Both the position numbers and the translations under genes were made by a program. A model generated the notes under the pieces. The model was not told the DNA's origin and did no database searches. It saw only the letters and a list, made by a program, of their open reading frames with translations. From positions 1 to 64,000 of the forward strand of contig PGYK01000006.1 of assembly GCA_002839605.1 (NCBI GenBank): a stretch of DNA of 64,000 nt, read 5' to 3'. Shown here piece by piece: positions 7,441 to 61,747 of this stretch. Numbering within the stretch: the stretch's first letter is position 1; each line of letters starts with the position of its first letter. This DNA comes from Methanomicrobiales archaeon HGW-Methanomicrobiales-3 (GTDB lineage Archaea > Halobacteriota > Methanomicrobia > Methanomicrobiales > Methanospirillaceae).

Positions 7441-7845
7441 CGTTTGACCGCAATCAGGATCCAGAGTGGATGACATTACGGGGGATAAGTCGAAAGATAA
7501 TACCGCGCAGATCATTATTCCGACGATAAATATTTCCGTGGGGTTACATGAAATAAATTGTATAAAAGTGTTGTCGGCCAAAATTCGTCACGTCTTTTCA
7601 AACATATCACCAGTTCGAATTTTAGGACAGAAATTATTAATAATGCGATATTCAACCGCTCATTGTGAGCAACCAACAATTGGCTCTCACGAAAAAGAAA
7701 GGACGGGTTCACCCAAGTTTACAGACCAAATGAACCCGGCCCGCCCGTAGGCATGAGATTATTATCTTCTGTTCTTATGAAGATTTTCCCGTGCCTTTTC
7801 GAGCGTAGCATTTCGACAAAAACACGAAGAGGTGTTAAAACATAC

Positions 7846-9168
7846 ATGACCCAACTGAAAACAACCAGCGTCGTCCTGCTGCTACTACTACTGGCAGGGA
7901 TGGCGATAGTACCGTACGTGAGTGCGGAAGAAGGAAATGAAGAAAGGGGAGATACAGAAGTCCTTGAAAAACTCATTGACACAAATGACATTATTGACAA
8001 AAACACAATTACGACCGACACTGCCCACAAACACGCAACCGTGATGATGGCAGAATCACTCGTGAACGGACGCGTTAATGATGACTGGCACGGTGCAATA
8101 ATAAATTCCGAACCACTGGTGATTAATGATATCAACGGAAAAGCGCTCTTCTATCAGTTCTCGGTTGAAAAGGATTCCAAACCAATCGGGCTCATTAAAA
8201 TTTCTGCAAACAAGATTCTTGGCATATCGCTTCAGGAAATTGGAGATCCAAGTACTTTTGATCCCCAACAGATTACCTTGAAAGCAATAAGCATAGCAAC
8301 AAAAGACTATCCGGAATTTACCGTTTCGTCTTCAGAAATTGTCTGTTATAATTATCCAAGCATCGGAGTCAAGATTTATCTCGTCAATTCCAACACCAGA
8401 GAACATAAAACGGTGATTTATGATGCGTACGATTACTCTGATGTTGCATTCAAAAAACCAACAAAAGAGGGTGAGTCCGGAGCATGGTCATATCTCAATG
8501 AAATTCCAGTTTCAGCTTATAACGAAAGGAGAGATAAATGGCTGAATTCTGATGCTTACGTAAACACTGTTGTTGAAACTGCATCAGGAAAGGGGATTGA
8601 CATTAATCGTCCGCGGACGATTGAGCAGGACCAGATCATTCAAAACGCAATTACCGCAGCTCAAAAGGGAGTGTTCGAAGTCGGAGAAATCCCCGGTTCG
8701 TTTCCAACTGCATATCAGGGGTATACACAGTGGTGCCAGGCAGGAACTGCTCTGGTAATCACCAAATTCTACAAACCGGACTGCCTAAGAACCATCAACG
8801 ATATCCGACTAAAAATGAATATTCCCAATGAGCAGTCTGGCGCCGATTATACGGATGAGATAAATTATTATAAAGCCTCATATGCTGGTGGCGCAGCTAA
8901 TGGCGGACTGGACAAATTCTATTCATGGTGGTCAATGACCCAGCCGCCGCTAACCTATACCAAAGTGAAGCAGGAGATTAGTGCAGGAAGGCCCATGAAG
9001 ATCGGGCAAAACGGTCATGCGAGGGCTTGTATCGGATTTAGCAAAAACCCCGATGGGGATAAATATTTCAAGTTCTCTGATACCGGAGATGCACGGATAA
9101 AATGGCTGCCTTCACCAACACTTTATAGCGATGCAACAGGGTATGAAAGCTATGCTGTTATCCAATAA
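7846..9168 (+). CDS. Secreted papain-fold (C39-like) cysteine peptidase
   Basis: The ATG at 7846 has GAGGTG 11 bases upstream and yields a clean signal peptide (about 27 residues ending near VSAEEG), so the upstream ATG at 7753 is rejected. The C-terminal third carries a papain-like arrangement: YTQWCQAGTALV with the putative nucleophile Cys297, GHARACIGF with the putative His391, and FSDTGDA with an acidic/Asn-position residue shortly after. The Gln before the Trp-Cys would form the oxyanion hole. The region before it (about 60-230) resembles a propeptide of streptopain-like secreted peptidases. An exported protease or peptidase-like inhibitor target is likely. The substrate is unknown, and loss of activity cannot be excluded. 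Confidence 0.7.
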   Translation: MTQLKTTSVVLLLLLLAGMAIVPYVSAEEGNEERGDTEVLEKLIDTNDIIDKNTITTDTAHKHATVMMAESLVNGRVNDDWHGAIINSEPLVINDINGKALFYQFSVEKDSKPIGLIKISANKILGISLQEIGDPSTFDPQQITLKAISIATKDYPEFTVSSSEIVCYNYPSIGVKIYLVNSNTREHKTVIYDAYDYSDVAFKKPTKEGESGAWSYLNEIPVSAYNERRDKWLNSDAYVNTVVETASGKGIDINRPRTIEQDQIIQNAITAAQKGVFEVGEIPGSFPTAYQGYTQWCQAGTALVITKFYKPDCLRTINDIRLKMNIPNEQSGADYTDEINYYKASYAGGAANGGLDKFYSWWSMTQPPLTYTKVKQEISAGRPMKIGQNGHARACIGFSKNPDGDKYFKFSDTGDARIKWLPSPTLYSDATGYESYAVIQ

Positions 9169-9230
9169 TTTCAACATTTTTAATTAGTTGTGATAGAAAT
9201 GATCTCCACCCATAATTTATTGAGGATTTT

Positions 9231-11072
9231 ATGAAGGCTTGCATAAATAACCAGGTTATTTTTACTTTTTTCCTTGTAATGGGATTTCTTTTACTCAATA
9301 TCTCTGCGATTGCAGCATCACCCACAACGGATATAAGAACGGTAGAACCGTCCCCTGTCGGGGGGTATTATGTCATACACTGGCCGGGAAAAAATGCAGA
9401 GGTTTTCTTTCACGACCAATTTATGGGCAGGATTGATGGTAACTCCCTTATTGTCCCCGTAGCAACAGGCATGCAAAAATATTCCAGATATTCAGTTATA
9501 TCCGGCAACCGCACACTCTTTACCGACACATTACCAGAAGCACCGGTTTCTGGAGAATATATCGAGGTTTTCCCCAGGTGGATCCAGACCAATCAGCCAC
9601 GGCCTGACGCAAATGCGTCCGTAAGAACATATCAGGTTTATTGGCCGGATGATGGCGTGTTAGTAGAAATTAACGGGGTATACCAAGGGACGATCTTTAA
9701 TGGACTTTGCAGGATAGAGATTCCCGGCCAGAATATTCCCGGGCACCCTGAATATCCAAAGACAATTTCATTAAGATATCCCGATAAGAATGTGGTACAA
9801 ACATTCTCAATAAATATCATTCCCGAAGTCGGAGGTGTGACCGACTATTATCTCTTCTGGTCTTCACCCCATATGTATCCTGATGAGCCTCCACGCAAAA
9901 GAGAGCAGAGATCAGTTCCCGGTCCACTCTGGATCAATCAATTTGATGCATCAAATCTGGACATCTCGGTCTCAAAAACCGGAGAATATGGTGCGATTGG
10001 CACAACTGATACCGGTATTGCAAGGATGTTCTCTTCGCAAGGGAATGTCCTCTGGTCATATCATGATTATGGAAAAACCCTGCTTGTTGCTGTCAGCGAA
10101 AACGGGGATTTTTGTGCCATAGCCAGCCGGAAAGATGCATGGACTGTTGAAGAGTCACAAGGGGAAATCCTCCTTGCCGGCCGGAACGGAACAATCTTTT
10201 GGAAAAAAACACTGAACCAGGGAGCCAGTAGTGTCGCAATTTCACCAGATGGATCGTCAGTTTTTGTTACAGCCGGGCAAATGATGGAAATACTGAGTGA
10301 AAATGGTGAGAGGTGGGAGAAAATTTCCATTCCGCATACCTGGTCGCCACCTGCAGTCGCAAACGGAAGATGGATTGTATCATCCGGCACAAATTCCCTA
10401 TACTATTATTCAAGCAACGGGTCACTCGTATGGAGTTACCCGGTAAGTGGAAGGATAACAGGGATTAGCCTTTCTTTGGACGGGAGCCGCGGTGCAGCAA
10501 CCAGTGATGATCACCTCTATTTTTTTACCAGGGATGGGGAGGTTATCTGGCAGAAGCCTTGGAAATACCGGTTTACGGAAATTGACATATCAGGGGACGG
10601 AGAGTATGTCACTGCGTCATCCCAGTACCGGCTTTTGTATTACAATAATCTTGGAGAACTTCTGTGGCAAAAGGAACATTCCGGCTATGTGCAGGATGTT
10701 TCTATCTCTGCCAACGGGAGCAATGTTGCCGCTGTGTTTGTCCCGGGAAATCTGCGGCTTTATAACCACGAAGGAAAAAAATTCTGGGATTACCAGTTAT
10801 CAAAAACACCACCTGCCCGCTCAAATGTTGTGTTATCAGATAACGGGAGGTTTGTTGCGGTAAATGAAGGCGGGTACCTGAATTATTTTAACGAGTGGGG
10901 AAATGCGACGGTAATTATTGATGAAGTTATCCTGAATACCACAATCTCAACAAAGGAACTGAGTGATGTCTCGTCTCATTCAACACCAGCATCATCTCCG
11001 CTATCAGTATTTTTCGTGATCGCAGCGCTGTTGCTGTGTGCGATAATTATTTTCTGTTGGAAAAAGATATGA
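9231..11072 (+). CDS. Secreted beta-propeller protein with C-terminal membrane anchor
   Basis: A 613-residue protein with a signal peptide (FTFFLVMGFLLLNISAIAAS). Two beta-rich repeats (about 30-200) share the pattern YxVxWPG...VEVxxNG...G; then comes a propeller of WD40/PQQ-like blades (about 235-560) with recurrent motifs such as VAVSENGDFCAIAS, VAISPDGSSVFVTA and ISLSLDGSRGAATS. The C-terminal segment FVIAALLLCAIIIFCW plus KKI anchors it to the membrane. The propeller therefore faces outward, where it may bind proteins or glycans. It follows the secreted peptidase by 62 bases in the same direction and may be co-expressed. A protein of similar design lies at 17608. Confidence 0.75.
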   Translation: MKACINNQVIFTFFLVMGFLLLNISAIAASPTTDIRTVEPSPVGGYYVIHWPGKNAEVFFHDQFMGRIDGNSLIVPVATGMQKYSRYSVISGNRTLFTDTLPEAPVSGEYIEVFPRWIQTNQPRPDANASVRTYQVYWPDDGVLVEINGVYQGTIFNGLCRIEIPGQNIPGHPEYPKTISLRYPDKNVVQTFSINIIPEVGGVTDYYLFWSSPHMYPDEPPRKREQRSVPGPLWINQFDASNLDISVSKTGEYGAIGTTDTGIARMFSSQGNVLWSYHDYGKTLLVAVSENGDFCAIASRKDAWTVEESQGEILLAGRNGTIFWKKTLNQGASSVAISPDGSSVFVTAGQMMEILSENGERWEKISIPHTWSPPAVANGRWIVSSGTNSLYYYSSNGSLVWSYPVSGRITGISLSLDGSRGAATSDDHLYFFTRDGEVIWQKPWKYRFTEIDISGDGEYVTASSQYRLLYYNNLGELLWQKEHSGYVQDVSISANGSNVAAVFVPGNLRLYNHEGKKFWDYQLSKTPPARSNVVLSDNGRFVAVNEGGYLNYFNEWGNATVIIDEVILNTTISTKELSDVSSHSTPASSPLSVFFVIAALLLCAIIIFCWKKI

Positions 11073-58780: not shown

Positions 58781-59248
58781 ATGACTCATGATGCAATGGT
58801 ACAGCCGGGCGATGTGGCAAAGAACTTCTCGATCAAGGACCAGAACGACACCACGTTCAGCCTGCTGGAGAACAGCGGGAGGAGAGTGCTCCTCTCCTTC
58901 CACCCGCTCGCCTGGACGGAATACTGTGCCCGGCAGATGACGTCGCTTGAGGAGCACCAGGCCCGGTTTGGGGAACTCAACTGCGTGGCGGTAGGCATCA
59001 GCGTGGACAGCAAACCGTGCAAGAAGGAATGGGCAAAGAGTCTCGGCATTACAAAGACAAGACTCCTCTGCGACTTCTGGCCGCACGGCACGGTGGCGAT
59101 GAAGTACGGGATCTTCCGCGACGAGAACGGGTTCTCGGAGCGGGCAAACATCATCGTGGACGAGAGGCAGCGGGTCGTGTTCGTGAAGGTCTACCCGGTC
59201 CATTCGGTGCCGGAAATCGGGGAGGTCCTGACGTTTTTGCAGAAATAA
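58781..59248 (+). CDS. Peroxiredoxin (AhpC/TSA family)
   Basis: A 155-residue thioredoxin-fold peroxidase that reduces peroxides. The peroxidatic Cys is in HPLAWTEYCARQM, which fits PxxxTxxC. KPCKKEW holds a second Cys about 35 residues later that may be resolving. GTVAMKYGIFRDENGFSERANIIVD is typical of the AhpE/BCP-like group. A starting ATG at 58781 is used; another Met five codons in is possible. The gene is divergent from the PHP gene. Reductant unknown. Confidence 0.92.
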   Translation: MTHDAMVQPGDVAKNFSIKDQNDTTFSLLENSGRRVLLSFHPLAWTEYCARQMTSLEEHQARFGELNCVAVGISVDSKPCKKEWAKSLGITKTRLLCDFWPHGTVAMKYGIFRDENGFSERANIIVDERQRVVFVKVYPVHSVPEIGEVLTFLQK

Positions 59249-59397: not shown

Positions 59398-59520
59398 CCC
59401 CCAAAGGGGGCGAGGGCGCATGCGATTCCTCTGTATTACCTGAAATCCAGATCCAAGTAATACAAGACTATCGCAATCGGGCGCCATAGCGGCGGGGCGA
59501 AGCCCCTGGAGCGTTAGCGG
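59398..59520. other. Hairpin-rich intergenic stretch before the HEPN gene
   Basis: The spacer 59249-59656 contains CCCCCAAAGGGGG (59398-59410) and GGGGCGAAGCCCC (59494-59506), the latter within a larger GC-rich inverted context. These are compact hairpins of unknown role and not clear copies of families A or B. Further on the spacer becomes AT-rich, in keeping with the following gene. Confidence 0.4.
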
Positions 59521-59656
59521 TTTCCTGTCCTGAGCAGAATTACTTTTTTGTATTGCATTTTAGGATAGCAATCTTTCGTTTTTTCCCCTCGCAATTCTTT
59601 TCCGGATCTAGGGGGGGTTAGAACAGGACATTACCCATAATTATTACCCCAGAGTA

Positions 59657-60859
59657 GTGGTGATTAAACACGGTGAAATGTATTCCTCTTTCGAATGTAT
59701 AAAAAAATCTTTCTATGTAGATGATCTTGAGAGATCTATGGACGAGATAAATACGAAAGCACAATATACAATTTTATATTCGGTCAGTACGGGAATTTCG
59801 ATTTGTAATCAAAAAGATGGTTGCCCGAACCCAATATTCACATTTAATCTTAAAGACCATTCGATTTTTGTAAGAGATTACAAATTTGTTAAAGAAAGTA
59901 AAATTTTAGATTATGGGTTAGAATTTATTATAAAAACTGAAACTGATAATTTAGAACAAACGTTAATTATCTTAAAGAATGATGTCGAAAACATATTAAA
60001 TTTACTTTGCTTTTCAACACTCTGTTATGCAGATAAATCATCCTTAAACTCAGTAATCAAAATTAATAATTCATTGAAAACACACGAAGCATCGTTCTAT
60101 GTCTATCCCATGACAGGAAAACGAGTTAATCAGTTATGTATTATTGATCTCGTTTTTTTCTCACATATTTGGAAAAATTTTCAATCGTGTGACATTGATG
60201 AGCAAAGGCGAATTTTAAGAGCAATTACGTGGTTAAGAAAAGGATTGAATGAAGACAACCTTGATGAATTTATATCCAACTGGATAGGATTGGAAATATT
60301 GAGTAAAATTATTCGTAAAAAGTACATTGGGATAGTAAAAAAGGGAGATGAATGGGGAGGACTAAAAAAGATCTTTAATGATTTTCTAAATGTAAATGAA
60401 ACACGATTCGAAAAAGTAAAGGGTGATTATCGAAATGGAATTGTCCATGGATTTCAAGAACTCGATAATAAATTTATTCACGATGTCCAAGAATTTTCAC
60501 CATTACTAAGAAAATGTTTGATTGCCTGCATTTGCAAATCTCTAAAAATTTCCGATAAAATTACAAATAAAATACTTAAACGGGACATTAAAAAATGGCA
60601 AAATTTCCCATATAGTGTCATGAAAGGAAAAATTGAAAATTTACCGGATTTCGATGAACAAAAAAACATGTTCCCAAGAGTTTTCCCCCTTGTAAAAGAG
60701 ATTACATTTGATTTTATTGAAGGGAATAAAGTATCCTTTCAAACAGAAATTGAATGTGATTTTAGAAAACATTCGAAGACAATTTTTGAACAAGAAATTA
60801 ACGAAACGTGGTATAACGATAATTCAGGAATTGAAACATTTGACTGTAAAATTAAGTAA
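59657..60859 (+). CDS. AT-rich HEPN-domain protein, probable foreign gene
   Basis: A 400-residue protein with strongly AT-biased codon use, unlike every neighbour. The N-terminal 200 residues have no recognised domain. The region about 210-310 has a HEPN-like helical pattern with NWIGLEILSKIIRK and, at about 259-264, RNGIVH, which fits the Rx4-6H motif of HEPN RNases (Apea-like HEPN). HEPN proteins often act in toxin-antitoxin, phage defence or RNA decay. Start GTG 59657 or ATG 59678 is uncertain. No partner gene is adjacent, and both flanks are core genes. Confidence 0.7.
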   Translation: MVIKHGEMYSSFECIKKSFYVDDLERSMDEINTKAQYTILYSVSTGISICNQKDGCPNPIFTFNLKDHSIFVRDYKFVKESKILDYGLEFIIKTETDNLEQTLIILKNDVENILNLLCFSTLCYADKSSLNSVIKINNSLKTHEASFYVYPMTGKRVNQLCIIDLVFFSHIWKNFQSCDIDEQRRILRAITWLRKGLNEDNLDEFISNWIGLEILSKIIRKKYIGIVKKGDEWGGLKKIFNDFLNVNETRFEKVKGDYRNGIVHGFQELDNKFIHDVQEFSPLLRKCLIACICKSLKISDKITNKILKRDIKKWQNFPYSVMKGKIENLPDFDEQKNMFPRVFPLVKEITFDFIEGNKVSFQTEIECDFRKHSKTIFEQEINETWYNDNSGIETFDCKIK

Positions 60860-60991
60860 ATTAAGACGAAGTATACAGTGGAAGTTTCAGTATTTTTTCT
60901 TTTTTACAATCAATATAGTGAGGTAATAAAAAAGGAGTGAAGATACGATACAATATTGGTCCCAAGAATATTCCGACACTACCTACTATCG

Positions 60992-61747
60992 TTACCCGAT
61001 ATAACTCAGTTCCTCGTCCTTTGCCTGCTCGCCCTCGACCAGGTTCTCGATGGCCTTTTCCATCTCCGCAGCCCGGTCATTGAGCCGGGTCAGGTCGACC
61101 GGAACCTCGATCAGTTTCGAGAGGATCGCAAGCACGCTTGAAGCCGCCATCGGGTCGACGATATACCCGCTCGTCTCGCCCATAAGGCAGATCGCATCGA
61201 TTCCCCGCGGAGCAGAGAGGGCAAGCATCAGACCGGCTGCCCCGACAATCCCGCCGCCGGGCTCAGCCCGCTCGAATGCAACACCCGCCGCCTCGACCTC
61301 CTCACGGAGTTCAGGACGGTTCACCGCCCCGAGCACCCGGGGTTCCTCCACCAGGTGACCGACCCCGAATCCGCCGAGCGTGTAGATACGCCGGGCCCTG
61401 ATCTCTGCAGCAATGTCGCAGTAGCAGTCGGCAAGAATGTAGTGCCCCTCGCCCGAGGTGCTCTGGTGGTCGCCGACCAGGAAGACAAGGTCGCAGGTTT
61501 CTGACTGGTACAGGTACAACTCGTTCCGGGCAAGGCGGGCTGTGCCGTTCTCGTCAAGGATGACCTGCGGGGGGAAGTAAAGGGAGGTGATCTCGGCGAT
61601 CTTCTCTGCACCCAGCTCATGGATCATGTACTCGGCAACCAGTTTTCCCACCTGGCCGATCCCGGGCAGCCCCTCGATAAAGATGGGATCCCTGACGGTT
61701 TTGTCCTTGAAACTGTCAAGGTAACGGACGGAGATGTCCTCAATCAT
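60992..61747 (-). CDS. PAC2-family protein, second copy
   Basis: A 251-residue PAC2 paralogue; the ATG at 61747 overlaps the Nop10 stop. The motif FIEGLPGIGQVGKLVAEYMI and IYTLGGFGVGHLV are typical. This copy ends Ser-Tyr-Ile-Gly, so its Tyr is third from the end and it does not fit the HbYX tail of proteasome-binding members. It lies last in the ribosome and translation-factor operon, the usual place for a PAC2 gene in euryarchaea. Confidence 0.88.
   Translation of the reverse strand: MIEDISVRYLDSFKDKTVRDPIFIEGLPGIGQVGKLVAEYMIHELGAEKIAEITSLYFPPQVILDENGTARLARNELYLYQSETCDLVFLVGDHQSTSGEGHYILADCYCDIAAEIRARRIYTLGGFGVGHLVEEPRVLGAVNRPELREEVEAAGVAFERAEPGGGIVGAAGLMLALSAPRGIDAICLMGETSGYIVDPMAASSVLAILSKLIEVPVDLTRLNDRAAEMEKAIENLVEGEQAKDEELSYIG

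Follow-up and report, generated by a model that had tools for sequence, protein, structure and literature searches.

The window, the whole 64,000-nucleotide stretch of DNA analysed here, carries a solitary, AT-rich gene (59657 to 60859, forward strand; delimited by its open reading frame, composition and codon use) whose 400-residue product we describe as a putative ApeA-like HEPN protein. Its start codon is GTG, and an alternative ATG, preceded by GGTGA, lies at position 59678. A T-rich run right after the stop codon (60891 to 60907, forward strand) may, as read from its letters, be an archaeal terminator. The initial annotation had placed the gene alone between a peroxiredoxin and the PAC2 end of a ribosomal operon, and Pfam confirmed these neighbours: an AhpC/TSA-type peroxiredoxin on the left (58781 to 59248, forward strand; PF00578) and, on the right, a PAC2 family gene (60992 to 61747, reverse strand; PF09754) that ends the aIF2-alpha/S27e operon, with aIF2-alpha and S27e lying beyond it. 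Except for frames overlapping the HEPN gene or its neighbours, the flanking intergenic stretches contain no open reading frame of at least 60 residues, and no defence gene adjoins the HEPN gene in its own genome.

The gene had also been described as AT-rich and deviant in codon use, and our measurements bear this out. Its G+C content is 0.293 and its GC3 0.252 (G+C at the three codon positions: 0.36, 0.26 and 0.25), against means of 0.563 and 0.670 over the window's 44 longest ORFs, among which the second-lowest G+C is 0.431. The 1.2-kb stretch holding the gene is the G+C minimum of the whole window. Its codon use lies at a distance of 0.293 from that of the local core genes, compared with 0.048-0.101 for the core genes, a departure from the local core-gene mean 3-6 times as large as theirs. 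At this composition, the chance of a 400-codon open frame is about 5e-17. The second-lowest G+C stretch of the window (7753 to 11072; 0.43-0.45) contains a 471-residue ORF without a Pfam match and a 613-residue PQQ/beta-propeller protein.

When the single protein was searched against Pfam, NCBIfam, PADLOC and the PDB, no meaningful match was obtained. Active HEPN RNases carry an Rx4-6H motif with N, D or H after the arginine, together with an upstream acidic residue of the ExxxK type (PMC3710099). In the window protein, the sole Rx4-6H is R259-N-G-I-V-H264 (60431 to 60448, forward strand), a HEPN Rx4H active-site motif with a polar N after R259, and the Ex3[KR] feature of the superfamily occurs upstream as E213-ILS-K217 (codon of the conserved acidic residue E213 at 60293 to 60295, forward strand). 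E213, R259 and H264 are invariant in an alignment of 11 rows, as are R259 and H264 in an alignment of 12 rows. The pattern R[NDH]x3H alone was found in 3.8% of shuffled sequences; the extended pattern [WF][IVL][GA][LF]E...R[NDH].[ILV][ILVF]HG was found in 0 of 5000.

Profile searches enlarged the family by HEPN relatives from two further genomes (G290 and G111) and by longer archaeal proteins. Against 177,635 distinct PDB sequences, a 12-row profile of the HEPN domain placed six ApeA chains on top (9hxm, 9hxj, 9hxd, 9hxi, 9hxb and 9hxn; E 3e-5 to 6e-3); in these alignments the R...H motif and the E motif are each in register. To guard against drift, a 7-row profile omitted, among others, the rows matching MauJ or HEPN_Apea, and three ApeA chains still occupied the first three places (E 6e-4, 0.029 and 0.22). 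With the five nearest rows only, Ec1ApeA ranked first in the PDB (E 0.11). A PDB match of a two-row profile, 2i71, which is listed as Csx1 (PMC3710099), was dropped because the R...H motif was absent from the alignment. Profile-profile comparison (hhalign) of small alignments with archaeal ApeA and MauJ sets gave probabilities of at most about 5% and only short in-register pieces. The AF2 models were weak, with a mean pLDDT of 31.5 for the whole protein from a single sequence and 42.1 for the HEPN domain from two rows; the weak HEPN-domain model was all-helical, and Foldseek returned no significant match for it. Because ApeA chains are the top profile matches and E213, R259 and H264 are invariant, HEPN identity is well supported by sequence, and we are highly confident in assigning a HEPN domain to about residues 165-300 (60149 to 60556, forward strand; profile matches to ApeA chains and relatives). 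The initial annotation, which had recognised a HEPN motif in RNGIVH, therefore stands on this point, and nothing we found contradicts a HEPN core.

ApeA is a tested anti-phage protein (PMC7699616, PMC10952713). The window protein resembles it in being encoded by a single gene, in the HEPN helix motif R..R...W......D....F..WI.LE.L combined with Rx4H, and in a helix (...LLSLA-like) in the region upstream of the HEPN domain. However, it is undetected by HEPN_Apea (PF18739) and by the PADLOC models, it has about 400 residues compared with 470-540 in the archaeal PF18739 proteins examined, and relative to ApeA it carries an extra C-terminal tail of about 100 residues. The ApeA N-terminal domain is beta-rich and about 300 residues long, whereas that of the window protein has about 165 residues, has no Pfam match and is not recognisable as such a domain.

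This N-terminal region, residues 1-164 (59657 to 60148, forward strand), is a suggested sensor. It had been described as matching nothing recognisable; this held for the database searches, but the 150 residues that precede the HEPN glutamate, once aligned across 20 proteins, hint at an ApeA/MauJ-type layout. The order there is strands, a helix (about residues 98-121 of the window protein, ending in ILNLLCFS), strands and the first HEPN helix, with strand and helix labels read from the sequences and unscored; a helix ending in a LLSLA-like pattern is common to the aligned regions. The C-terminal region, residues 301-400 (60557 to 60856, forward strand), is shared, at low identity, only with a relative in genome G011 of the same genus (L003:934-2073). 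These comparisons suggest that the window protein may be an ApeA/MauJ-type protein that has been shortened and has gained a C-terminal tail. Judged by its sequence, it is a previously unannotated HEPN protein, ApeA-like yet formally outside ApeA; it belongs to a known class, in which it is atypical, and introduces no new principle.

The likeness to MauJ (PF17419) raises the alternative of a MauJ-like HEPN protein that has a role in housekeeping or stress and is not directed against viruses. The archaeal MauJ proteins L017 and L018 have the same order of N-terminal region, HEPN domain and C-terminal region, and their E and R...H positions align with those of the window protein, although identity is only 12-15%. 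Weak Pfam MauJ scores were obtained for two relatives, L087 and L004; the former reaches 24 bits with MauJ and 17 bits with HEPN_Apea, each below the cut-off, and thereby links both groups. Nonetheless, neither the window protein nor the G011 relative matches PF17419 above the cut-off, and the patchy presence, the foreign composition and the lack of a linked metabolic operon make such a role improbable.

Two other classes share the HEPN RNase features. CRISPR type III effectors of the CARF-HEPN kind (Csx1/Csm6) have a HEPN RNase domain, and a CARF-HEPN model gives a weak score (E 0.0034) to one distant relative, L008; however, the window protein has no CARF match and no observed association with CRISPR genes. 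HEPN-MNT toxin-antitoxin systems share the HEPN RNase motif, and HEPN proteins are the classic toxins paired with nucleotidyltransferases (PMC3710099), so that the gene might instead encode the toxin half of such a pair, kept by addiction and not for defence. The window gene differs from these systems in its sequence family and in having no nucleotidyltransferase partner. Because the flanks hold no partner gene of at least 60 residues, and the G011 relative is likewise alone, we consider this reading unlikely.

Our searches for relatives took in 60 relatives, 295 and 393 phylum genomes, 108 family genomes and 232 class genomes. The HEPN gene was present at the PAC2-peroxiredoxin site in 1 of the 108 family genomes, and a single full-length relative, the 379-residue G011 gene, was found across the 232 class genomes. 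Its product is 23% identical to the window protein and reads RDSIVHG where the latter has RNGIVHG. The G011 gene is also AT-rich (G+C 0.37, compared with 0.55-0.60 in its neighbours) and solitary, and it is flanked by dihydrolipoamide-dehydrogenase-like and lysyl-tRNA-synthetase-like genes (named from sequence).

To compare the site, we took twenty loci of the genus around PAC2. PAC2 is followed directly by a PHP-type gene in G003, G005, G009 and G010, and in others the peroxiredoxin lies in between. The PAC2-peroxiredoxin gap is empty in G017 (423 bases); it holds a GNAT acetyltransferase, recognised by Pfam in G004 and G015 and by sequence similarity in G014 and G019, and an AT-rich M48-type peptidase in G020 and G022 (G+C 0.30-0.35). 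G020 is the closest relative with a usable locus (PAC2 84% identical) and is without the HEPN gene; in G013, whose PAC2 is 94% identical, the contig breaks inside PAC2. Since the gap is empty or differently filled in relatives, we conclude that the HEPN gene was acquired at a turnover site. The initial annotation had proposed acquisition by transfer and had named orthologues of host-like composition at the same place in most relatives as a possible refutation. The comparison found no such orthologues, and the foreign composition, the presence in one family genome and the empty site in a relative support horizontal acquisition; the acquisition is recent. Occurrence at this site in one genome only could also point to a decaying gene, acquired by chance and functionless, but with a full open frame and E213, R259 and H264 intact this is very improbable.

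Both flanks can be aligned with the empty site of G017, which gives an approximate insert extent of 59640 to 60980. No direct repeats of at least 8 bases were found between the insert edges, and neither integrase, tRNA or viral genes nor an att-like repeat were found at the edges or in the flanks. Upstream of the HEPN gene, at 59420-59565, lies a dispersed intergenic element that contains a GC-rich hairpin (ggcggggcgaagcccc) and has further copies in the same genome at C12:133713-133859, C16:208251 and C7:118427 (about 79% identity between copies); the element is present in G017 too. We rejected this repeat as a cassette mark, since none of its other copies adjoins an AT-rich gene.

Among the distant relatives, scans of genome contigs recovered the Archaeoglobales copy alone. 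This copy (G290) lies on a provirus-like contig of 9.2 kb, QMZC01000102.1, with terminase-, protease- and tape-measure-like genes (named from sequence). In G111, the copy belongs to a variable region, and a ThsB-type TIR gene is located about 5 kb away. A weak relative of 553 residues in G001 (L080:274-1935), without a Pfam or PADLOC family match, adjoins an HsdR_N/MmeI_N restriction-type gene. These contexts, few as they are, are those expected of conflict genes. As separate observations, the G111 relative (L076:9420-10209) is seemingly split, possibly by a frameshift: an upstream frame of 117 residues, resembling the N-terminal part of the G290 protein, overlaps the 162-residue HEPN frame. 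In G412, a HEPN-like protein of 664 residues (L092:649-2643; G+C 0.31) has C-terminal HEAT repeats fused to it and is without a HEPN family match.

The terminase-, protease- and tape-measure-like genes on the contig of the G290 copy, like the foreign composition of the window gene, would also suit a gene that an archaeal virus or provirus carried as cargo for its own benefit, e.g. in superinfection exclusion, and left in the chromosome. However, the flanks are without viral or integrase genes and without an att-like repeat, and the plasmid, phage and viral-contig collections yielded no match to the window protein; we give this origin little probability.

We favour the reading that the gene encodes a transferred, stand-alone, divergent ApeA-like HEPN protein that would act as an infection-triggered RNase in abortive infection, and we consider this reading, which draws on analogy with characterised HEPN proteins, reasonably probable. 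Taken separately, RNase activity is likely; an infection-triggered defence role is less secure, yet still probable. The solitary habit of the gene, its patchy presence and the contexts of its distant relatives are compatible with a single-gene role in defence or abortive infection.

Our model proposes that the HEPN domain homodimerises, and that the paired E213/R259/H264 sites would cut RNA without a metal. The N-terminal region, perhaps together with the C-terminal tail, would keep the enzyme inactive until it detects a product of virus infection, presumably a ligand, by analogy with ApeA. For ApeA itself, the title of a preprint cited in PMC13405049 refers to activation by deoxydinucleotides. 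RNA cleavage would then stop translation and abort the infection, with the cell killed or stalled.

If this model is true, ApeA-like single-gene RNase defence reaches methanogens in a form that is short, unannotated and overlooked by current defence-finding models. The compact window protein would also help in studying which portion of ApeA-like proteins detects infection, and the exchange slot would be a place to seek more such genes. A broader proposal is that the PAC2-peroxiredoxin gap serves the genus as a small slot in which solitary AT-rich genes turn over, and that the HEPN protein and the unrelated M48-type peptidase each represent a single-gene defence module whose sensing parts are new; this is conceivable, and we hold it only tentatively. 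As to the peptidase genes in their own right, both (L054:6834-7460 in G020, G+C 0.35, and L061:7256-7789 in G022, G+C 0.30) are solitary and encode a small protein, with hydrophobic segments, an HEEGH motif and a Peptidase_M48 match just above the cut-off.
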